Origin: Roseivirga sp.
Lineage (GTDB): Bacteria > Bacteroidota > Bacteroidia > Cytophagales > Cyclobacteriaceae
Assembly: GCA_029262895.1 (NCBI GenBank)
Contig: JAJCYM010000066.1
Span: 35,678 to 99,677 of the forward strand
Direction: 5' to 3'
DNA: 64,000 nt
Part shown: positions 19,342 through 60,592 of the stretch, piece after piece
Layout of the letters: the number at the start of each line of letters is the position of its first letter
How positions within the stretch are numbered: position 1 is the stretch's first letter
Program-made: the position numbers and the translations under genes
Notes under the pieces: model-generated
Told to the model about the DNA's origin: nothing
Seen by the model: only the letters and a program-made list of their open reading frames with translations
Databases searched by the model: none

Positions 19342-20198
19342 ACAATCATCTTTTCTATTGGTACTACCAGAATGCCCTCCGCTCCCGCTTCCCGAAGATT
19401 TTCGATTACTCCCCAGAAATCATCTTCGTTAATCACAGAGTGGATTGAAGACCAGTTTTCCTGGGCAAGGGGCAACACCGTAGGGCTGCGCATGCCAGGG
19501 AGAATATCAATGATCTTATCAATGGCCTCATTAGGCGCATTGAGCAAAATATACTTGCTGCTACGGGCTGCCTGAACAGCGTCAATCCTGAAAAGCAGCC
19601 TCTTCAAAATGGTTCTCTTTTCATCTGACAGTTGCTTGTTGGCAATCAAAACCGCCTCAGACCTAAAAATTACTTCCACTTCTTTCAGCCCATTGCTCAT
19701 CAGTGTACTGCCTGAACTCACAATGTCGCATATGCCATAGGCAAGGCCAATGCTTGGAGCAATTTCCACAGATCCACTGATCTCATGGATATCAGCTTCA
19801 ACATTATTGGCGGCCAGGAAATCTCCAAGAATTTTGGGATAGGAAGTAGCGAGGCGCTTGCCCTGAAAGTCTCCCAACCCTGAATAGGGTTCGTTTTTGT
19901 CTATTGCCAGAGATAATCGGCACTTCGAAAAACCAAGTTTTTGAGTCCAATCAACGGCTTTATCTTTTTCTTCTGCCTCGTTGGCACCCACAATGCCTAT
20001 ATCAGCAATGCCATCCTGTACATAACCGGGTATATCATCGTCCCGAAGGAATAGAAATTCAAGTGGAAAGTTAGTAGCAACCGACTTCAGCTTACCGGTA
20101 CCATTGCTGAATTTAATGCCACACTCTTTAATGAGCTTTAATGATTCATCGCTGAGTCTTCCACTTTTTTGCACAGCAATGCGTAATATATTGTCCAT
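19338..20198 (-). CDS. hisG: ATP phosphoribosyltransferase (long form)
   Basis: HisG catalyses the first, committed step from PRPP and ATP. At 286 aa it is the long form with a C-terminal ACT-like regulatory domain (about residues 210-286, containing NAPNEAIDKIIDILPGM and ILVVPIEKMIV), which normally gives histidine feedback inhibition without HisZ. The catalytic part has DIGIVGANE and the PRPP loop region ISGSVEIAPSIGLA. It is the first structural gene of the operon, 39 nt after the attenuator terminator, so expression should be set by the His leader peptide at 20285-20356. Confidence 0.97.
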   Translation of the reverse strand: MDNILRIAVQKSGRLSDESLKLIKECGIKFSNGTGKLKSVATNFPLEFLFLRDDDIPGYVQDGIADIGIVGANEAEEKDKAVDWTQKLGFSKCRLSLAIDKNEPYSGLGDFQGKRLATSYPKILGDFLAANNVEADIHEISGSVEIAPSIGLAYGICDIVSSGSTLMSNGLKEVEVIFRSEAVLIANKQLSDEKRTILKRLLFRIDAVQAARSSKYILLNAPNEAIDKIIDILPGMRSPTVLPLAQENWSSIHSVINEDDFWGVIENLREAGAEGILVVPIEKMIV

Positions 20199-20274: not shown

Positions 20275-20322
20275 GTGCATCTCTCTAAGAGAGATGATGG
20301 AAATGATGCACGTGATGTGCAT
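20275..20322 (-). promoter_or_regulatory. Mutually exclusive pairing segments in the his leader
   Basis: The segment ATGCAC/GTGCAT occurs three times in pairing orientation: plus-strand gtgcat at 20275-20280 and at 20317-20322 can each pair with atgcac at 20306-20311, but not at once. A perfect 8-bp hairpin, CATCTCTC with GAGAGATG (20278-20296), overlaps the leader stop codon. Alternative structures of this kind are expected in a ribosome-controlled attenuator. The exact antiterminator is not certain from reading alone. Confidence 0.55.
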
Positions 20323-20356
20323 TGCCAGGGTAGTATGTGTTGATCAATTCGATCAT
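20285..20356 (-). CDS. hisL: Histidine leader peptide of the hisGDCB operon (23 aa)
   Basis: A 24-codon ORF starts with ATG at 20356 and ends with TAG. Residues 14-21 read HHVHHFHH, so six of eight codons are His, and residues 7-9 read TYY. It sits between a good promoter (20364-20393) and a terminator just before hisG. This is the arrangement of a his attenuator: stalling at His codons when charged tRNA-His is low should prevent the terminator. The ATG is only 7 nt from the -7 box, so the mRNA leader in front of it must be very short. The His density makes a chance ORF very unlikely. Confidence 0.92.
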   Translation of the reverse strand: MIELINTYYPGNAHHVHHFHHLS

Positions 20357-52397: not shown

Positions 52398-53012
52398 TTA
52401 ACGATGTCGTTCTCTTAATATTTTGATCACATCATTGAGTGAGTATCCTTTGGCCTCAAGCAAGATCATATAATGAAAAAGTAGGTCAGCAGATTCATTA
52501 AGAAAAAGACTCTCATTGTCATCCTTGGCCTCTATTATCATCTCCACCGCCTCTTCACCCACCTTTTGAGCAATCTTATTGATACCCCCATCAAACAAAC
52601 TTGCAGTGTATGATTCATCAGGAGCTTTTTGCTTGCGTTCCTTAATAACCCCGGTAAGGTAATCCAGGAACCCAGCACCCGGTTCGTTTGACTCATCGAA
52701 GCAAGTATCGGAGCCCGTATGGCAGGTAGGACCCTTGGGCTCCGCCCGAATTAGAAGTGTATCCTGATCACAATCTACAAGTACTTCCTTAAGGCTAAGA
52801 AAATTGCCACTGGTTTCTCCCTTAGTCCACAATCTTTGCTTGCTTCTGCTGAAAAAAGTAACCTTACCACATTCCATCGTCTTGTCGACCGCTTCAGCAT
52901 TCATATAACCGAGCATCAATACCTTGTTTGTCACAACGTCTTGCACTATGGCCGGAACCAATCCACTTACGAGATCAAACTTAATCTCCTCCACCCTTTC
53001 CAATTTTCTCAT
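52398..53012 (-). CDS. hisIE: Phosphoribosyl-AMP cyclohydrolase / phosphoribosyl-ATP pyrophosphatase
   Basis: A 204-aa fused enzyme for steps 2 and 3 of histidine synthesis. The N-terminal HisI part has the metal motif [25 protein letters not shown] and [18 protein letters not shown]. The HisE part (about 115-204) has [15 protein letters not shown] and the E-rich catalytic helix. It overlaps hisF by 4 nt and is the last gene of the second his operon. Confidence 0.95.
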
Positions 53013-53770
53013 GATTCAATTCTTATCGCAATTCCCTTCTCTTTTAAAAACATCTTCAGTTCCGGCACTCTAACTTCCTCAAAGTGAAATATACTGGCCG
53101 CCAAAGCCGCATCAGCGTGGCCTTTTATGAATGCATCTACAAAATGCTGCATATTCCCTGCCCCACCTGAGGCGATAACCGGTATGTTCAGCATATTGGA
53201 AATTTCAGAAACAAGCCCATTGGCAAAGCCAGCCTTGGTGCCATCATGGTCCATAGAAGTCAGCAGGATTTCACCAGCACCTCTCTCCTCAACCTCAAGT
53301 GCCCATTGAATTGTATTCAATGCCCTGGCTTTCCGCCCCCCATTTATATGCACAACGTGTTCCTCTTTTGCAAAACAAGAATCAATGGCCACCACCACAC
53401 ATTGACTACCAAATTCGCTCGCCAGTTCATTAATCAGTTCCGGCCTTTTAACAGCTGAGGAGTTGATAGAAATTTTATCAGCACCTGCATTCAATAATGC
53501 AGAGACATCGGCCTTTGACGAAATGCCTCCTCCAACGGTAAAAGGAATATTGATTTCGGCAGCCACTTTACTCACTAGTTCAACAAGTGTCTTTCTTTTT
53601 TCTACTGTAGCCGCAATGTCGAGGAATACCAATTCGTCAGCGCCTTCCCTGGCATACCTGGCGGCAAGTTCTACCGGATCACCCGCATCCCTCAAGCCAA
53701 TAAAGTTCACCCCTTTGACCGTTCGGCCATCCTTAATATCCAGGCAGGGTATGATTCTTTTTGTCAGCAT
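53009..53770 (-). CDS. hisF: Imidazole glycerol phosphate synthase, cyclase subunit
   Basis: A 253-aa TIM barrel. The start [23 protein letters not shown] includes catalytic Asp11, and [11 protein letters not shown] and the central VVVAIDS (second catalytic Asp) follow. HisF forms the synthase with HisH, encoded upstream in the same operon. It overlaps hisIE by 4 nt and is 3 nt from hisA. Confidence 0.96.
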
Positions 53771-53773
53771 TTT

Positions 53774-54493
53774 TTAATTATTGAATGAGGCCATTTCTTC
53801 AAAACTAATTCTGCCTTCATAATATGCCTTGCCCACGATGGTACCATAAACCCCCAATGTCCTTAGTTCTTCGAGGTCATTTATGCCTGAGACACCTCCA
53901 CTTGCAATCAATTTGAGGTCAGGGAAAGCCTCCAACACTCGCCTATAGAGGTCAAATGAAGGGCCTTGCAGCAAGCCATCTTTGCTTACATCCGTACAAA
54001 TGCAGTATTCGGCTCCAGAGGCAAGGTAATCTTCCAGAAACTCAAAAAGATCGACTCCTGAGTCCTCCTGCCAACCGTTGATAGCAATCTTCTCATTCCG
54101 GACATCAGCCCCAAGAATAATTTTTTCGCTACCAAAAAGTTGAATCCAATTCTTGACCATGTCTTTGTCATTGACTGCAATACTGCCTGCCGTTATTTGA
54201 TGTACACCCGTGCTAATCACCCTGTCAATACTTTCATTTGATTTCACTCCTCCTCCAAAATCAACCTGCAGACTGGTGTTGGACAATATGTCCATAAGTA
54301 TTTGAAGATTAACGGGTTGACTCGCCTTAGCTCCTTCCAGATCGACTATATGTAATTGCTCGATTCCAGCCTGCTCAAATTTTTTGGCCACTTCCAGCGG
54401 ATCATTGCTATACACCTTTTTTTGGGTGTAGTCACCTTGCGTAAGACGGACGCATTTGCCGGATATAATATCTATTGCTGGTATTATTCGCAT
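53774..54493 (-). CDS. hisA: Phosphoribosylformimino-5-aminoimidazole carboxamide ribotide isomerase
   Basis: A 239-aa TIM barrel paralogous to HisF. Catalytic Asp8 is in RIIPAIDIISGKCVRL and the second Asp is in ILGADVRN; GGGVKSNESI and the C-terminal GKAYYEGRI are conserved. It catalyses step 4. The gene upstream is not another his gene but a small four-helix-bundle cassette; hisH comes before it. Confidence 0.96.
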   Translation of the reverse strand: MRIIPAIDIISGKCVRLTQGDYTQKKVYSNDPLEVAKKFEQAGIEQLHIVDLEGAKASQPVNLQILMDILSNTSLQVDFGGGVKSNESIDRVISTGVHQITAGSIAVNDKDMVKNWIQLFGSEKIILGADVRNEKIAINGWQEDSGVDLFEFLEDYLASGAEYCICTDVSKDGLLQGPSFDLYRRVLEAFPDLKLIASGGVSGINDLEELRTLGVYGTIVGKAYYEGRISFEEMASFNN

Positions 54494-54504
54494 AGAGATT
54501 TTGA

Positions 54505-54941
54505 ATGTTAAATGGTGAATTTTGAATTATGCCTTGTGTTGTGAAGACTTCACTATGGCAGTAAGAATGTTTATAAGGTCATCGGCTTCCTTCAGTAGCT
54601 TATCAGTTTTAAGATTTACAAGGTCACTGTACTTTATTAATAGCAACCAATACCTCACCTCTCTTGCCTCCTTAGATGATATGGACATTTTTGCAGCGAA
54701 GTCTTTTTTAGAGAATGCTGCCTGGGCTTCCTGTACATTTGCACCAATGCTTGTTCCAGATCTCAATAGTTGTTTGGATAAAACAAACTCCTTTTGATCA
54801 CGCATTTGTTTATACCCCTCAATAATTTGTAAGGCAAAATCAAAACTTTTCTGTTCAATAAGATTATCTGAGAATTTCATTATAGTAGTGTTTAAGGTGA
54901 ATAGTCAATTGTAATTCAAAATACCCAATCCCATTTAACAT
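54505..54941. mobile_element. Inverted-repeat-bounded cassette carrying a four-helix-bundle gene
   Basis: The left edge reads ATGTTAAATGG (54505-54515) then ATTTTGAATTA (54519-54529). The right edge, read inward on the opposite strand, reads ATGTTAAATGG (54941-54931) then ATTTTGAATTA (54922-54912). Both 11-bp motifs are exact, so about 23-30 bp of ends are inverted around one gene. The cassette lies between hisH and hisA. No transposase is inside; it may be mobilised in trans. No target-site duplication is certain. Confidence 0.55.
54527..54880 (-). CDS. Four-helix-bundle protein (S23 / 23S rRNA intervening-sequence protein family)
   Basis: A 117-aa protein resembling the family of proteins encoded in 23S rRNA intervening sequences (PF05635-like): SFDFALQIIEGYKQMRDQKEFVLSKQLLRSGTSIGANVQEAQAA and DFAAKMSISSKEAREVRYWLLLI. 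No ribosomal operon is near. The function is unknown; a nucleic-acid role is suspected for the family. It lies in the histidine operon and is enclosed by inverted repeats, which marks it as an inserted cassette. Confidence 0.85.
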   Translation of the reverse strand: MKFSDNLIEQKSFDFALQIIEGYKQMRDQKEFVLSKQLLRSGTSIGANVQEAQAAFSKKDFAAKMSISSKEAREVRYWLLLIKYSDLVNLKTDKLLKEADDLINILTAIVKSSQHKA

Positions 54942-54965
54942 TTAACATCAAGCATTCATCATTCC

Positions 54966-55547
54966 TTACAGTTTTAAAAAGTTCTCCAAAATCCTCTCCC
55001 CCACCTTTCCGCTCTTTTCAGGATGTGCCTGAAGCGCATAAAAGTTGTCTTTTTGCAGAGCCGCACTAAATGGGTTTACATAGTCCGTAACTGCAACAGT
55101 ATGCTCACTCAATTGAGCATAATAACTATGCACAAAATACAGGTAGCTATGCTCACTGACTCCATCAAAAAGTGGTGAACCCATCTTAATAAGGTCATTC
55201 CAGCCCATTTGTGGCACTTTAAGCCTAGGCTCAAATTTTCGAACGTCAATATCAAAAATGCCAAGACAGTCTGTATCATTCTCTTCGGAATGCCTACAGA
55301 GAAGTTGGAGACCAAGACAAACTCCAAAGACCGGCTGTTGTAAGGATTTCAACAGTGCGTCCAGGCCATTCTCTCTCAAGAATCGCATGGCCGTGCTGGC
55401 TTCTCCAACACCTGGAAAAATGACTTTATCTGCCTTGCTAATCACCTCTGCATCTGCACTCAAAATGGGATTTACACCCAATCGCTGAAGTGCGTAACTA
55501 ACCGAGCGCACATTGCCGGCATTGTAATCTATAATGACTACATCCAT
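54966..55547 (-). CDS. hisH: Imidazole glycerol phosphate synthase, glutaminase subunit
   Basis: A 193-aa class I glutamine amidotransferase with nucleophile Cys77 (GVCLGLQLLC) and His175/Glu177 (QAHPEKSG). It supplies ammonia to HisF. Its start is 29 nt after the phenylalanine hydroxylase gene. In one-operon relatives hisH normally follows hisB; here the operon has been split. Confidence 0.96.
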   Translation of the reverse strand: MDVVIIDYNAGNVRSVSYALQRLGVNPILSADAEVISKADKVIFPGVGEASTAMRFLRENGLDALLKSLQQPVFGVCLGLQLLCRHSEENDTDCLGIFDIDVRKFEPRLKVPQMGWNDLIKMGSPLFDGVSEHSYLYFVHSYYAQLSEHTVAVTDYVNPFSAALQKDNFYALQAHPEKSGKVGERILENFLKL

Positions 55548-55576
55548 TATCTCAATGAAAATGAGCTCATAAGCGC

Positions 55577-56311
55577 TTAGGCAAGCATTGCCTTCTCTTT
55601 AAGCCTTAGTTCAATTTTTTCTTTAATGACTGGAAGGGATTCGTACAATTGCTCATAAGAGTCAATGATGAAATACTTGTTCTGCATCATGTCTTTTCGG
55701 TAAGGTGTATCCAGAATTTGGTCCACATCAAACTCAAAATGTTCCGGTTCATTGCTCAGAGAAAATTTGGTTTCACCTGAAGAAGAGAGAATTCCTGCCC
55801 CGTAGATTCGCAGCTCGCCATTTTCTCTAATCAATCCAAATTCGATGGTAAACCAGTAGATTCGGGATAGTAGATGGATTGCCCACTCATCATCGATCCA
55901 CTCTTTCCCGAATTGGCTAATGGCCTGAAGAAAGTCCACAAATGCCTGGTTTGCAAGCAAAGGGATGTGTGCAAACACGTCATGAAACATATCCGGCTCC
56001 TCCAGATAATCCAATTCACTCATTTTCCTTACCCAGGTGGTAGCGGGAAATTTCTTGTTGGCCATTAGCTCAAAAAAGAGATCATCTGCCACTATGCCCG
56101 GAACAGCATAAATTTCCCAACCAGTAAGTTCTTTTAAGATTCTATTAGTTTCCTCAAAGTTTGGAATTCGCTCACCGGTAAAATCAACTCTCTTGACGCC
56201 AGTCATAAATTCAGCCGTTGCTGCCTTGGGCAGACTGGGCATTTGACGATCAAATAAGATCTTCCAAACTTTCTGATCCTCCTCAGTGTACTTGTCGTAT
56301 TCTTGTTTCAT
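55577..56311 (-). CDS. phhA: Phenylalanine 4-monooxygenase
   Basis: A 244-aa iron enzyme that hydroxylates phenylalanine to tyrosine with tetrahydropterin. The iron ligands are evident and at the usual spacing: His110 and His115 (HDVFAHIPLL) and Glu157 (YWFTIEFGL). The length fits bacterial monofunctional forms without the regulatory ACT domain. It is the first structural gene of an operon that continues with hisH, hisA, hisF and hisIE. A leader peptide with Tyr and His codons and a terminator lie directly upstream, suggesting that tyrosine and histidine supply both set its expression. Confidence 0.95.
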   Translation of the reverse strand: MKQEYDKYTEEDQKVWKILFDRQMPSLPKAATAEFMTGVKRVDFTGERIPNFEETNRILKELTGWEIYAVPGIVADDLFFELMANKKFPATTWVRKMSELDYLEEPDMFHDVFAHIPLLANQAFVDFLQAISQFGKEWIDDEWAIHLLSRIYWFTIEFGLIRENGELRIYGAGILSSSGETKFSLSNEPEHFEFDVDQILDTPYRKDMMQNKYFIIDSYEQLYESLPVIKEKIELRLKEKAMLA

Positions 56312-56340
56312 TTTATAGGTTTTGTTCGCTTTTGCGCATT

Positions 56341-56368
56341 AAAAAACCCGGCTCTTTCGGAGCCGGGT
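56341..56368 (-). terminator. Attenuator terminator before phhA
   Basis: On the minus strand ACCCGGCTC (56368-56360) pairs with GAGCCGGGT (56354-56346) around a CGAAA loop and is followed by six T. It is 30 nt from the phhA start codon. The loop-side sequence TCCGAA (56361-56356) is complementary to TTCGGA in the leader ORF (56423-56418), giving a plausible antiterminator. It could also end the upstream S41 transcript. Confidence 0.8.
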
Positions 56369-56400
56369 CGTATATTTTCAGTTTATTTTTTCTCTGCTGA

Positions 56401-56472
56401 TCACATAGTTCTACCGTTCCGAAGTATCGGGTTATGATAATAGTGGTAGTGATATGTGTTTCTGTTAATCAT
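56401..56472 (-). CDS. Tyrosine/histidine leader peptide of the phhA-hisHAFIE operon (23 aa)
   Basis: A 24-codon ORF, ATG at 56472 to TGA. Residues 7-13 read YHYHYYH: four Tyr and three His codons in a row. Promoter, leader, terminator and phhA follow in the order of a ribosome-controlled attenuator. The downstream operon makes tyrosine (PhhA) and histidine (HisH, HisA, HisF, HisIE), so the codon content matches both products. A small stem CCGA/TCGG (within 56419-56430) can compete with the TTCGGA/TCCGAA antiterminator. The protein has the same length as the hisG leader and shares its MI start and an NTY segment. Confidence 0.88.
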   Translation of the reverse strand: MINRNTYHYHYYHNPILRNGRTM

Positions 56473-56477
56473 TGCAC

Positions 56478-56508
56478 CAAAGGTAATATGCCTTTTCAAA
56501 TTAGCAAA
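56478..56508 (-). promoter_or_regulatory. Bacteroidota-type promoter of the phhA-his operon
   Basis: On the minus strand TTTG (56508-56505), a 19-nt spacer and TACCTTTG (56485-56478) match TTTG / TAnnTTTG. The -7 box ends 5 nt before the leader ATG and 31 nt after the S41 peptidase stop, so the operon has its own promoter. Confidence 0.75.
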
Positions 56509-56538
56509 CGTCATTCCAGATTATTTGGTTCGGCAATG

Positions 56539-57972
56539 TCATTTATCTTGCTTATAGTGCTGCATGATATAAGCGACCTTGTCTTCAACATTTCGAGCGA
56601 TAGGCACATCAGGAACTATGCCCGTTTTGTTATATCCATTCTCGGGAATTTCTTTATGGAAGGTGCTCGTAGGATATCCGAAATAGATATGCTGATTTCC
56701 GGAGTTCAACTGGGAGGCATTAACACTGGTATAGTCTATCATGCCGAAAGTTGGACTTCCAAAAGTGGTCACTTTGGAGCTGATGCCTTTTGCATGTAAA
56801 ATAAAAGATTCAGCAGCACTCATACAGCCCTCATCCGTCAGGATAGCCACATTTTCTACTTTGCTCTTCTTATTCCGCTTCACAGTGCGTCCGAGATAAG
56901 CAGGACCATCAACAATTTCACCCATATGTTCCTGAATGTCCTTGACTACGGGCTTATAAATTTTTGCGGAAAATTGCACGTTCCTTTCAAAATAGGCAAG
57001 GTTGTCGGCTGAAGCCAGTACATGCCCTTGTCCTCCAGGCATAATTCGGTCGGAAAATAAATCAAAGAATGGAAAGTAAATGGCGTTACCACCAGTGTTT
57101 CCTCGTATGTCAAAAATTAGATTCCTTGCATTTAATAAAGTCTTTTCATTTTTCTTGAGGAAGGACATAAATTGTTGGTAGTCTAGGTTATAGGAAGGAA
57201 TCGAAAAGAGCACGTTGTCGTCATCTAGTTTTTGAATCGTGGGTTGATCAATGCCATTTTCAAAATCAAACATTGCTTCTTCTCTTTCAAATTCAGAATC
57301 TATTCTGGCCCATCTGGAGTTAGCCAGCTTTAGCAATGTTCCTTCCTTATAAAGTTGGCCTTTAGTAAAGCTGACTTCATGCCCGTAACTATAGTAAACA
57401 CCTCTATACGCTTCTCCTGTCCACTTCAAGGTCACTTTTAGTTCACCAGAACTCACGTTTTCATTTGTAGACTGAAGTATGTAGCCATTATAAGAGTCAC
57501 CATCTTTGACCATTGCGAATTCTGAGGTCGCATCACTATATCTACCTATTATTTTGTCTCCTTCACCGGTTCCTGTCATGCGGCTTTGCAATTTGAGCAA
57601 AGCCTCAACTTGATCAACATCCAGTTTCCCGGTTTGAATCCTTCTCCTCATAGCATCTATTTCAGTTTCGGCATACTTGGGTCGCTCAAACACAAACAAA
57701 TGCCCGTCATCGAAATAGCTCAAAAACTCTCCAAGTACCTGAGTACACTGGCTGGCGTCTGTGTTGCTTGACAGCTTGGTGAATTCTGTCTTTCGTTGCT
57801 CATATTCAGATCGCTTTCCTCTTTCATAAAAGTGCTTCAAACCAATATAGTTGGCTTCTAGTTTAACTGTCATATCGCTAAATGCTTCTGAGCAGTTGCA
57901 TGTTCTTTCCTGTGACCATGACAGATTGATCATTGTCAGGGCCAGCATTGGCACTAAAATTATCCTTTTCAT
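56539..57972 (-). CDS. Exported S41 family peptidase
   Basis: A 477-aa exported protein (signal peptide to about residue 20). The C-terminal half holds the tail-specific-protease core: LIFDIRGNTGGNAIYFPFF (285-303) and nucleophile Ser385 in GCMSAAESFILHAKG. Residues 20-130 are helical and there is a lipocalin-like middle (TLKWTGEAYRGVYYSYG). The usual PDZ domain is not apparent. It is the last gene of a padR-permease-peptidase run; the gap to the permease is 10 nt. Confidence 0.85.
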   Translation of the reverse strand: MKRIILVPMLALTMINLSWSQERTCNCSEAFSDMTVKLEANYIGLKHFYERGKRSEYEQRKTEFTKLSSNTDASQCTQVLGEFLSYFDDGHLFVFERPKYAETEIDAMRRRIQTGKLDVDQVEALLKLQSRMTGTGEGDKIIGRYSDATSEFAMVKDGDSYNGYILQSTNENVSSGELKVTLKWTGEAYRGVYYSYGHEVSFTKGQLYKEGTLLKLANSRWARIDSEFEREEAMFDFENGIDQPTIQKLDDDNVLFSIPSYNLDYQQFMSFLKKNEKTLLNARNLIFDIRGNTGGNAIYFPFFDLFSDRIMPGGQGHVLASADNLAYFERNVQFSAKIYKPVVKDIQEHMGEIVDGPAYLGRTVKRNKKSKVENVAILTDEGCMSAAESFILHAKGISSKVTTFGSPTFGMIDYTSVNASQLNSGNQHIYFGYPTSTFHKEIPENGYNKTGIVPDVPIARNVEDKVAYIMQHYKQDK

Positions 57973-57982
57973 TTTTTTGTTT

Positions 57983-60592
57983 TTATTCGTTACGGAGGGC
58001 TTTGGTTGGATTCATCATGGCGGTTTTTATTGATTGATAACCGATAGTCAAACAGGTGATAAGCAAGGCGGTCACAATGGAAATAATCATCACATCGAAT
58101 CCCACTGATATCCTGTACATATAATCGCTCAACCAGTCGGACATCACGTAATACGCTATTGGTAGTGCCAAGAGCAATGACAATACTACCAGCTTTAAAA
58201 AATCAGTTGAGAGCAAAACAATGACATTAGAAATGGAAGCTCCCAGCACCTTTCTTATGCCTATCTCCTTGGCTCGATTCAGTGCCATAAAGGAGATCAA
58301 CCCGAACATCCCCAGGCAGGCAATGATTATGGCTATCGTGGCAAAGGTCAGAAACACATTGCTCAGCCTCGATTCAAAACGGTACATGTTTTCGAATCGA
58401 TCATCCAGAAATTGATACTCTAATGGCAACGATGGAGCAATTGAGGCCAGTTTGTCCTCCATGAAGTCAATGGTCTCTTTCACATTAACAGCACCTATTT
58501 TTACCAGTCCATAGTAATAGTCGTCTGGCTCATAGAACATTATGAACGGTTCGATCTTCCGCTGCATGGACATGAAGTGGAAATCCTCAACCACTGCCTG
58601 AACTGGAGTCTCATAGCCAGCCACACCGACCATTTGACCAATCGCTTCTTGAGGCGACCAATTAAATAGCTGGGCTGTGGCCTCATTAATAATGATACTT
58701 GGCATGCGCTGGATACTATCTGACTCTATAAGAGCCACGGCTTTTTCTTTTAGACCCACCCCAGCCAACAAGTTCATCCCCATCACATCGACAAAGTCTT
58801 CATCAACCTTGATGTAGTAGACCAGCTCATAATCTTCATCGGTAGGGCCCGTTTTGATGCCTCGTGCCGAACCCACATTCAGCGGTATATTAGAAGACAT
58901 GGCAATTCCCTCAATATTGGGATTGGATAGTAACTCAGATTTTAAGGTTTGAAAGTTTTCCCTGACCTCATCATTGACTCGAAAGTAAAGCACCTGATCC
59001 CTTTCATAACCTAGGTTTTTATTCTGTATAAAGTTGAGTTGTTTGTTCACCACCAAGGTGGAAACTAATAGGAATGCGGAGATGGAAAACTGTACAACAA
59101 CCAGGACTCTTCTCAATCCATTTCCAGCCCTGGAACCTTTGAAATTTCCTTTTAGAACCGATACAGGCCTAAAAGTAGAGAGCATCAGGGCTGGATAAAA
59201 ACCGGCAAGCAAACTAATCGCTATGCCCAAACCAAGCAGTATCAAAATGAACTCTTTATTCAACAGATAATCTGCCCCAAGGTTCACCCCGGATAGTTCA
59301 TTAAAGTAAGGCAGTAGAAGGACTGAAAGCCAAATCGAAACCATCAGTGAACCAAAAACAAACAAAAAAGATTCTCCAAGAAACTGATATATCAATTGCT
59401 TTCTGTGAGCACCCACGACTTTCCGAATTCCTACCTCTTTAGCCCTTTCCAATGATCTGGAGGTGGATAGATTCACATAGTTGATGCAGGCAATAAGCAG
59501 AATCAATAACGCAACTGCCATAAAAATGTAGACATACTTTATGTCCCCGATTCGACTGAACTCGTAGCTCAGTTGCATCTCAGATTGCAGGTAAATCTTA
59601 CTAAACGACTGGAGAAGAAACGGCTCTTGCTCATCCTCAGCAGGAACCTCTAATTGAACATTGAGGAATTGAGCCATTTTTGTTTCAAAAGAATTCCGGT
59701 CAATTCCATTCGCCAGTTGAATAAAAGTGTGATAACTCCTATTAGACCAGTGTTCCCTTCTTGTCCATGACAAATCATGCAATGGGGCCACATAATCGAA
59801 TTGTAGCATGGAGTTTTCGGGAAGATCTTGCATGACCCCCGTAATTGTATAGTTCCTTCCTGACAATTTGAGAGGCCTGTTTAGCACGTCATCTGTTCCG
59901 AAGCGATTTAAGGCCTCTTTGCGTGAAATCACAAGGCTATTGGGCTGACTGAGCGCTGATTTTTCAAGCCCTCTCAAAAACGGAAAAGTAAACATGTCAA
60001 AGAAACCAACATCAACATGATGGACATTACTTGTAAAGGCGTTTTCCTCTATGTTGAAAATTTGTCGTCCCATGATAATGACACGAACGCTTTCATCAAT
60101 TTCATCGTCAAAGTTTCTTTGGAGTAAAGGTCCAACGATATTAGCTGTGATGGCATCTTCTCCATCAGTAATTCTAAAAATCTTGTCCTTATTTTCGTGG
60201 AATTGATCATAACTCAACTGTTGCTGAACGTAGATCATTATCAGTATAAAACTAGTTAGCCCTACTGCAAGGCCAGACAAATTAATTGCTGAGTATACCT
60301 TGTGCTTTAAGGCATTCCTGAATGCAATTTTGAAGTAGTTCTTGACCATGGCTGCGTTTTGTGTTTTAAACCTTGCTGATGTGTTTCTTCGCTTCAGTGT
60401 ATGCCAGCGAAAAAACTTGAATACGTTTAACCAATACTTCTTCCGGGCTTTTCGAACTCCAAATTTTTCGACATGATCGCGAAATCGTTCTACCAAATCT
60501 CCATGAATCTCTTCCTGCAGGTCAGATGAGCAGTAGGTAAAGAACAATTTTGTGGCTAACCTGGGAGGTCTTGGTTTTATTGAATTACTCAT
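57983..60592 (-). CDS. FtsX/MacB-type ABC permease with N-terminal prefix domain
   Basis: An 869-aa permease. The N-terminal cytoplasmic prefix domain (PRLATKLFFTYCSSDLQEEIHGDLVERFRDHV, residues 8-45) differs from that of the two permeases at 9283-14557 and resembles the type that goes with PadR partners. It is followed by a helix, two MacB-like periplasmic domains and two FtsX blocks (YVNLSTSRSLERAKEVGIRKVVGA and NRAKEIGIRKVLGA). It overlaps padR by 4 nt, and no ATPase is nearby. Confidence 0.9.
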   Translation of the reverse strand: MSNSIKPRPPRLATKLFFTYCSSDLQEEIHGDLVERFRDHVEKFGVRKARKKYWLNVFKFFRWHTLKRRNTSARFKTQNAAMVKNYFKIAFRNALKHKVYSAINLSGLAVGLTSFILIMIYVQQQLSYDQFHENKDKIFRITDGEDAITANIVGPLLQRNFDDEIDESVRVIIMGRQIFNIEENAFTSNVHHVDVGFFDMFTFPFLRGLEKSALSQPNSLVISRKEALNRFGTDDVLNRPLKLSGRNYTITGVMQDLPENSMLQFDYVAPLHDLSWTRREHWSNRSYHTFIQLANGIDRNSFETKMAQFLNVQLEVPAEDEQEPFLLQSFSKIYLQSEMQLSYEFSRIGDIKYVYIFMAVALLILLIACINYVNLSTSRSLERAKEVGIRKVVGAHRKQLIYQFLGESFLFVFGSLMVSIWLSVLLLPYFNELSGVNLGADYLLNKEFILILLGLGIAISLLAGFYPALMLSTFRPVSVLKGNFKGSRAGNGLRRVLVVVQFSISAFLLVSTLVVNKQLNFIQNKNLGYERDQVLYFRVNDEVRENFQTLKSELLSNPNIEGIAMSSNIPLNVGSARGIKTGPTDEDYELVYYIKVDEDFVDVMGMNLLAGVGLKEKAVALIESDSIQRMPSIIINEATAQLFNWSPQEAIGQMVGVAGYETPVQAVVEDFHFMSMQRKIEPFIMFYEPDDYYYGLVKIGAVNVKETIDFMEDKLASIAPSLPLEYQFLDDRFENMYRFESRLSNVFLTFATIAIIIACLGMFGLISFMALNRAKEIGIRKVLGASISNVIVLLSTDFLKLVVLSLLLALPIAYYVMSDWLSDYMYRISVGFDVMIISIVTALLITCLTIGYQSIKTAMMNPTKALRNE

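Follow-up and report, generated by a model that had tools for sequence, protein, structure and literature searches.

A predicted ribosome-mediated attenuator with tyrosine and histidine codons precedes the phhA–hisHAFIE operon of Roseivirga

The region between positions 56508 and 56341 (minus strand) of the window, the 64,000-nucleotide stretch of Roseivirga sp. DNA analyzed here, is likely to be a ribosome-mediated transcription attenuator, in which stalling at Tyr or His codons would give read-through into the phhA–hisHAFIE operon. Such elements are characterized by a leader ORF whose codon run matches the end products of the operon and by an intrinsic terminator before the first gene, and the sequence contains both. 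An earlier note had proposed a dual Tyr/His attenuator from the DNA alone. This reading is supported by the match between leader codons and operon genes, by modeling of stalled ribosomes, and by the co-adaptation of leader segments and terminator arms.

All genes of the operon lie on the minus strand and match their families above cut-off. The first, phhA (55577–56311; NCBIfam NF008877 and TIGR01267), encodes phenylalanine 4-monooxygenase and is followed after 29 nt by hisH (54966–55547; TIGR01855). Further downstream are hisA (53774–54493; TIGR00007), hisF (53009–53770; TIGR00735), and hisIE (52398–53012; NF002747). While every gene named in the earlier note is present, an additional gene, encoding a four-helix-bundle protein (54527–54880; TIGR02436), is located between hisH and hisA. 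No match to tyrA (PF02153) was found in this genome, which is 96% complete, making PhhA the likely source of tyrosine in this cell. Across the genus, PF02153 has no match in 12 of 19 genomes and a match above 95 bits in 4 of 19; in the family, 135 of 148 genomes have a match. Echinicola presumably belongs to the same family as the Roseivirga genome studied here. In Echinicola vietnamensis, the GapMind authors proposed from mutant fitness that PAH makes tyrosine alongside prephenate dehydrogenase, according to the part of their paper drawn on here (PMC7311316).

Upstream, a gene on the same strand stops at 56539, leaving 66 nt to the leader ATG. Within this interval, a predicted sigma-A promoter comprises TTTG (56505–56508), which we take to be the −33 element expected in Bacteroidota, and, 19 nt downstream, the −7 element TACCTTTG (56478–56485). 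For Flavobacterium psychrophilum, a consensus TAnnTTTG at −12 to −5 is stated in the relevant section of PMC9723704. With a −7 box ending at −5 as in that species, transcription is predicted to start at 56473, a single base ahead of the leader ATG, so that the leader mRNA would have almost no 5′ untranslated region. The leader ORF, MINRNTYHYHYYHNPILRNGRTM (56401–56472), has 23 codons plus stop and is identified by sequence and genus conservation. Its putative regulatory run, YHYHYYH, occupies residues 7–13 (56434–56454).

Three segments define the alternative pairings. Segment 1 (56445–56457), which overlaps the run, consists of ACATA (56457–56453) and CTACC (56449–56445). In segment 2 (56403–56423), the antiterminator half TTCGGAAC is followed by GGTAG (56415–56411) and TATGT (56407–56403), which pair with segment 1. 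Segment 3, GCTCCGAA (56356–56363), lies in the 5′ arm of the terminator and is the antiterminator partner of segment 2; in this genome TTCGGA (56423–56418) is complementary to TCCGAA (56361–56356), just as the earlier note had written. The intrinsic terminator found by the terminator scan (56341–56369; stem 56369–56345, T's to 56341) ends 29 nt before the phhA start. The arrangement of promoter, leader ORF, terminator, and adjacent phhA described in that note holds as a whole, with correct coordinates, and two of its details need revision. The scan gives a stem of 10 pairs, seven of them G–C, rather than 9 bp. The proposed CCGA/TCGG hairpin does appear in the minimum-energy fold but is local, whereas the helix conserved in the genus joins ACATA and CTACC with GGTAG and TATGT. 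The 141-nt leader folds better than its own shuffles (z −5.73; 0 of 200 shuffles as good). An Rfam search of 54000–60000 with E up to 1 gave no match to the leader; the only match in this interval is RT-7 at 58562–58674, with 19.5 bits compared to a gathering score of 116.8.

In the proposed mechanism, transcription would start about one base before the leader ATG, with the ribosome trailing the polymerase. A shortage of Tyr-tRNA or His-tRNA would stop the ribosome in the YHYHYYH run, where it would cover segment 1, leaving segment 2 to pair with the terminator 5′ arm, so that no terminator would form. When both tRNAs are plentiful, the ribosome would be found at the stop codon, covering segment 2, and the terminator would form. 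The input would therefore be an OR gate on two unrelated pathways in one operon, given the presumed response to each amino acid. With no ribosome on the RNA, pairing of segments 1 and 2 would favor the terminator, a state on which the model agrees in only part of the genus.

The gene phhA is present in 18 of 19 genomes of the genus, and the leader, its Y/H run, and the terminator are kept at all 18 loci having the phhA 5′ end. This conservation speaks against a chance origin of the element. A terminator retained after loss of the leader ORF or of its Tyr/His codons, which the earlier note named as the finding that would contradict it, is seen at none of these loci. An uninterrupted run of 7–8 H/Y codons with both residues is found in 17 of the 18 leaders (L013 has an interrupted run, AYTYRYYH), written with TAT, TAC, CAC, and CAT. 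The order within the run differs among relatives (YYYHYYH, YHYHYYY, or HHHYYYYY, the latter in L016), and the flanking residues vary more. The spacing from TTTG to ATG is 5 nt at 17 of the 18 loci and 8 nt in L013.

Over 17 distinct rows of the genus alignment, the eight terminator pairs are paired in 100% of cells, with one pair changed on both sides, and the helix between segments 1 and 2 is paired in 95.9%, as opposed to 12.4–42.4% when slid. The antiterminator pairs are paired in 81.6%. Their covariation within the genus alignment is not significant, because the columns hardly vary. The terminator arm in this genome reads GCTCCG in place of the GTTCCG of most relatives in the genus, which breaks one antiterminator pair.

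To model stalling, we folded the RNA of the 18 genus leaders up to the terminator loop, removing the ribosome-covered part at each codon. The modeled probability of the antiterminator, formed by the 5′ arm with segment 2, is 0.57–0.97 at run codons and 0.000 at the stop codon. At the last H/Y codon, its mean is 0.83 with a 9-nt footprint, 0.82 with 12 nt, and 0.53 with 15 nt. With the footprint set to 12 nt, the half-maximum is passed 0–2 codons beyond the last H/Y codon; 9 or 15 nt shift this boundary by one codon (−1 to +3 over the three footprints). Computed in this way, an antiterminator that excludes the terminator would be set by ribosome position. When no ribosome is included, 9 of the 18 leaders still have a modeled antiterminator probability of at least 0.5 (this genome, 0.26), and the off state without translation is thus poorly explained; in this equilibrium model, the 1:2 helix wins in only part of the genus.

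In 96 leaders from all genera, the arm is paired upstream with a probability of 0.68 at the last H/Y codon and 0.22 at the stop codon, compared with 0.52 in shuffles. At most 5 of 100 shuffles are as high in 25 of the 96 leaders. The values are moderately above shuffles, and this generic test is weak on its own since a GC-rich arm pairs with many shuffles. A swap test on 85 loci with at least five H/Y gives −12.9 kcal/mol for a leader with its own arm and −10.2 kcal/mol with the arms of others, and this difference is equaled in 0 of 20000 permutations for the 85 loci and in 3 of 20000 for a set of 27 representatives, selected with a rough limit on ungapped identity (below 75%). These values support the co-adaptation of leader segment and terminator arm, as would be expected from an antiterminator.

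We then compared leader codons with operon content in Cytophagales, taking 210 phhA genes distinct by phhA DNA and scanning a maximum of 450 nt before each. The sample is uneven, combining the nearest 80 of 588 named loci, draws from the family and the order, and 60 order and 60 family loci selected from the hits. A leader was called where a short ORF with at least four H/Y in eight codons precedes an intrinsic terminator, H and Y being treated alike. A stricter and a looser terminator finder each missed leaders, and the final set combines both. Leaders were called at 97 of the 210 loci, and at 1 of 210 in the reverse complement of the same stretches. With hisH at most 600 nt downstream, 65 of 70 called leaders have at least two His in their best eight codons, compared with 1 of 26 in which no hisH is found within 600 nt (Fisher p 4.6e-17, kinship ignored). 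The contrast is also present in a stricter set with at least five H/Y of eight (59 of 64 versus 0 of 20; p 4.9e-15, kinship ignored). Counted by locus, the 108 phhA–hisH loci comprise 65 leaders with at least two His, five with fewer, and 38 cases without a called leader; for the 98 loci lacking hisH within 600 nt, the corresponding numbers are 1, 25, and 72. Six of these 25 low-His leaders have one His, and six of the 72 leaderless loci have hisH 1.1–2.0 kb further on. Four contig-end loci were left out of the comparison. One locus omitted in this way (L116/L162) reads HHYYHYYY, and hisH in that genome (G020) starts at the end of another contig.

The reciprocal pattern is observed for tyrosine. 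The hisG leaders of the genus failed as a terminator control, with terminators called in 1 and then 6 of 19, and for this reason the His run alone was used, together with his-only operons (hisGDCBH) outside the genus, for which a terminator was not required. An H/Y leader is present in 29 of 31 his-only operons. At least four His are found in 28 of these 29 leaders and at least two Tyr in one, with seven more having one Tyr, while 63 of 70 phhA–hisH leaders have at least two Tyr (p 4.9e-17, kinship ignored). One leader in the his-only set (L365) looks spurious, as probably are some leaders without hisH (among them L041 and L253); all are kept in the counts. Close relatives in Marivirga differ along the same lines. 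Both M. atlantica (NHYYYYYH) and M. aurantiaca (HNHYYYYH) have hisH, whereas M. sericea, M. arenosa, and one Marivirga MAG, all without hisH, share HNTYYYYY. A second Marivirga MAG, with hisH, has a single His (L069, KHYYYY). Upstream of phhA across Cytophagales, the comparison thus agrees with the earlier note: both codon sets are present and, with some exceptions, His codons track hisH and Tyr codons track phhA, which points to a dual Tyr/His element.

There are exceptions, and the 38 and 72 loci without a called leader also weigh against the reading. Five phhA–hisH leaders have fewer than two His (L013, L021, L069, L247, and L272), among them L247 (QYYYYYGY) with none despite the presence of hisH. 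L041 has two His without hisH, in an ORF that starts 450 nt away, and L178 (YLNISHHH) is almost devoid of Tyr although both hisH and phhA are present. At L323 (G116:C10), in a genome where phhA has no match, KNHHYYHH is found some 400 nt upstream of hisH; this leader is either a relic, or phhA is missing from the assembly. On the PhhA tree, parsimony gives seven changes of operon state and nine of His state, and two independent pairs are available on well-supported branches, for which the sign test (p 0.5) is underpowered. Among 200 pairings, 106 have both pairs in the expected direction, 85 have one expected and one without difference, and nine have one opposite. The independent switches in the tree are far too few for significance.

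In six genomes, phhA has no called leader and is located 5.7–12.5 kb downstream of trpE, in the same orientation. The trp leaders of these genomes hold 0, 0, 0, 1, 1, and 2 His, indicating that the His input is not generally taken over by the trp leader. Either the his genes there would lack control by a His-reading leader, or such a leader was missed.

Could only one of the two amino acids be an effective signal, with the other codons tolerated or serving RNA pairing? Segment 1 overlaps the run, so some run codons also serve pairing. The AroR leader of Corynebacterium glutamicum resembles the present one in having a Tyr codon, within Phe-Tyr-Phe before the aroF operon. It differs in that, in the portion of PMC11802643 considered here, it has no His and responds to Phe limitation, Tyr supply being without effect on transcription. 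The Tyr codon of AroR is not sensed, and codons alone are therefore no proof of sensing. We nevertheless regard a single signal as unlikely for the Roseivirga leader, since His codons track hisH and Tyr codons track phhA, the run is rearranged while both residues are kept, and the stall model allows antitermination at every run codon.

It is very improbable that the leader ORF is incidental, whether to an ordinary intergenic terminator or to an attenuator under the control of a protein or a small molecule. Given the upstream gene end at 56539, a terminator nearby is not odd in itself, but there is conservation of both the H/Y run and the 1:2 helix, leader segments fit the terminator arms of their own loci, and H/Y leaders with a terminator are far more frequent in forward than in reversed upstream regions; in addition, the weak RT-7 match lies elsewhere. 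TnaC is a nascent peptide that halts its own ribosome when a metabolite is sensed. A similar arrest by a Tyr/His peptide, in place of codons waiting for charged tRNA, is barely conceivable here, because the residues of such a peptide should be conserved, whereas relatives in the genus differ in how many Y and H they have and in what order, and leader content tracks the operon genes. We thus retain the reading in which stalling at either Tyr or His codons would prevent termination.

Other H/Y-rich leaders occur in the genus. In the window, a second his operon (hisG, hisD, hisC, and hisB at 20198–15919, the latter two named from sequence rather than by family search) is preceded by the leader MIELINTYYPGNAHHVHHFHHLS (20285–20356, minus strand), which serves for comparison and is not part of the proposed switch. 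An ORF upstream of hisG with at least four H/Y of nine codons and a His-rich end is present in all 19 genus genomes (L128–L146). A terminator in the hisG leader (20356–20246 of the window, minus strand) was called in six of the 19, this genome included, so that many hisG leaders may not act through an intrinsic terminator.

A covariance model built from the 18 genus leaders and searched over 148 family genomes also matches leaders of aromatic operons. In this genome, RFYFFFYF (L306, G000:C48:158089-158229) precedes a gene whose product resembles DAHP synthase, with scores under the NCBIfam cut-offs, followed by aroB and aroA. Four tyrA operons without hisH have RFYYYYFYF, NYYYYYR, IYYYYYR, and TYYYYYYR. 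In two genomes of one genus (G027 and G107; L303 and L304), hisH and hisA come after an aminotransferase gene, tyrA, and a DAHP synthase-like gene, with KYYFYYHYF as the leader of the group; with one His in one genus, the evidence for His in tyrA–hisH leaders is thin. At locus L197, with phhA and no nearby hisH, the leader TYYFFYF combines Tyr and Phe, the product and the substrate of PhhA.

In trp operons joined to hisH (L317, L324, L325, L331, L337, and L343), the leaders hold Trp and His codons (YWYWHFTH, HIHAWYWH, HTNFWWWH, HAWWWHWH, and, with one His, HIGFWYW). At least two His near the Trp codons occur in 6 of 7 trp–hisH leaders, for one of which (G050) the hisH link is assumed from its genus-mate G120, compared with 5 of 26 other trp leaders (p 0.0025). 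L330, whose contig ends before trpE, was left out, and L391 had no Trp leader. The rule is weaker for trp, since leaders without hisH also commonly have one His following the Trp codons. Taken as sequence comparisons, these cases suggest that leader codons matching operon content may be a general rule. We see an even chance that Cytophagales share one rewritable attenuator scaffold, in which the leader codons add up the end products of the genes behind them, forming an evolvable multi-input OR gate recoded whenever a block such as hisHA moves between operons. The codes of this scaffold, which stand or fall with it, would be Tyr for phhA, His for hisGDCBH, Tyr and His for phhA–hisH, Trp and His for trp–hisH, and Tyr, Phe, and His for tyrA–DAHP synthase–hisH.

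Ribosome-mediated attenuation is a classical mechanism. The his attenuator of Salmonella and Escherichia coli has, like the element described here, consecutive His codons, an antiterminator, and a terminator, but it reads one amino acid, whereas here Tyr codons are interleaved and phhA is part of the operon. The E. coli leaders of thr (Thr, Ile) and ilvGMEDA (Ile, Val, Leu) are reminiscent of the present one in that a single leader has codons for more than one end product. Those amino acids belong to one branched pathway, in contrast to Tyr and His, whose unrelated pathways are joined by gene order. To our knowledge, every multi-amino-acid leader described so far responds to the products of a single branched pathway. 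The passages of PMC1183508 used here name thr and ilvGMEDA of E. coli as attenuated operons and give the his model in which a stall on any of seven His codons yields the antiterminator.

A 2010 survey, in the part cited here, gives Proteobacteria and Actinobacteria as the only groups with leader peptides known at the time, and extends the list to Firmicutes (PMC2965389). Within the same phylum as Roseivirga, "strong clues" for leader-peptide attenuation before amino-acid operons are reported for F. psychrophilum, with no Tyr/His leader named in the relevant part of that paper (PMC9723704). In the portion covered of a survey of his gene organization in Bacteroidota, attenuation comes up in a single general remark, and neither phenylalanine nor hydroxylase occurs as a word (PMC8305728). 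Literature searches confined to an open-access collection gave no Tyr/His or phhA leader.

The element is a well-conserved predicted attenuator in Bacteroidota, for which, in the literature searched, leader-peptide control appears as a brief mention only, in the part of PMC9723704 consulted. What would be new is a single leader that reads two unrelated pathways as a result of their genes having come together in one operon. Comparing relatives that have hisH or phhA with those that lack them suggests that regulation is rewritten codon by codon as the operon gains or loses genes, and how regulation keeps up with operon rearrangement may thereby become directly testable.
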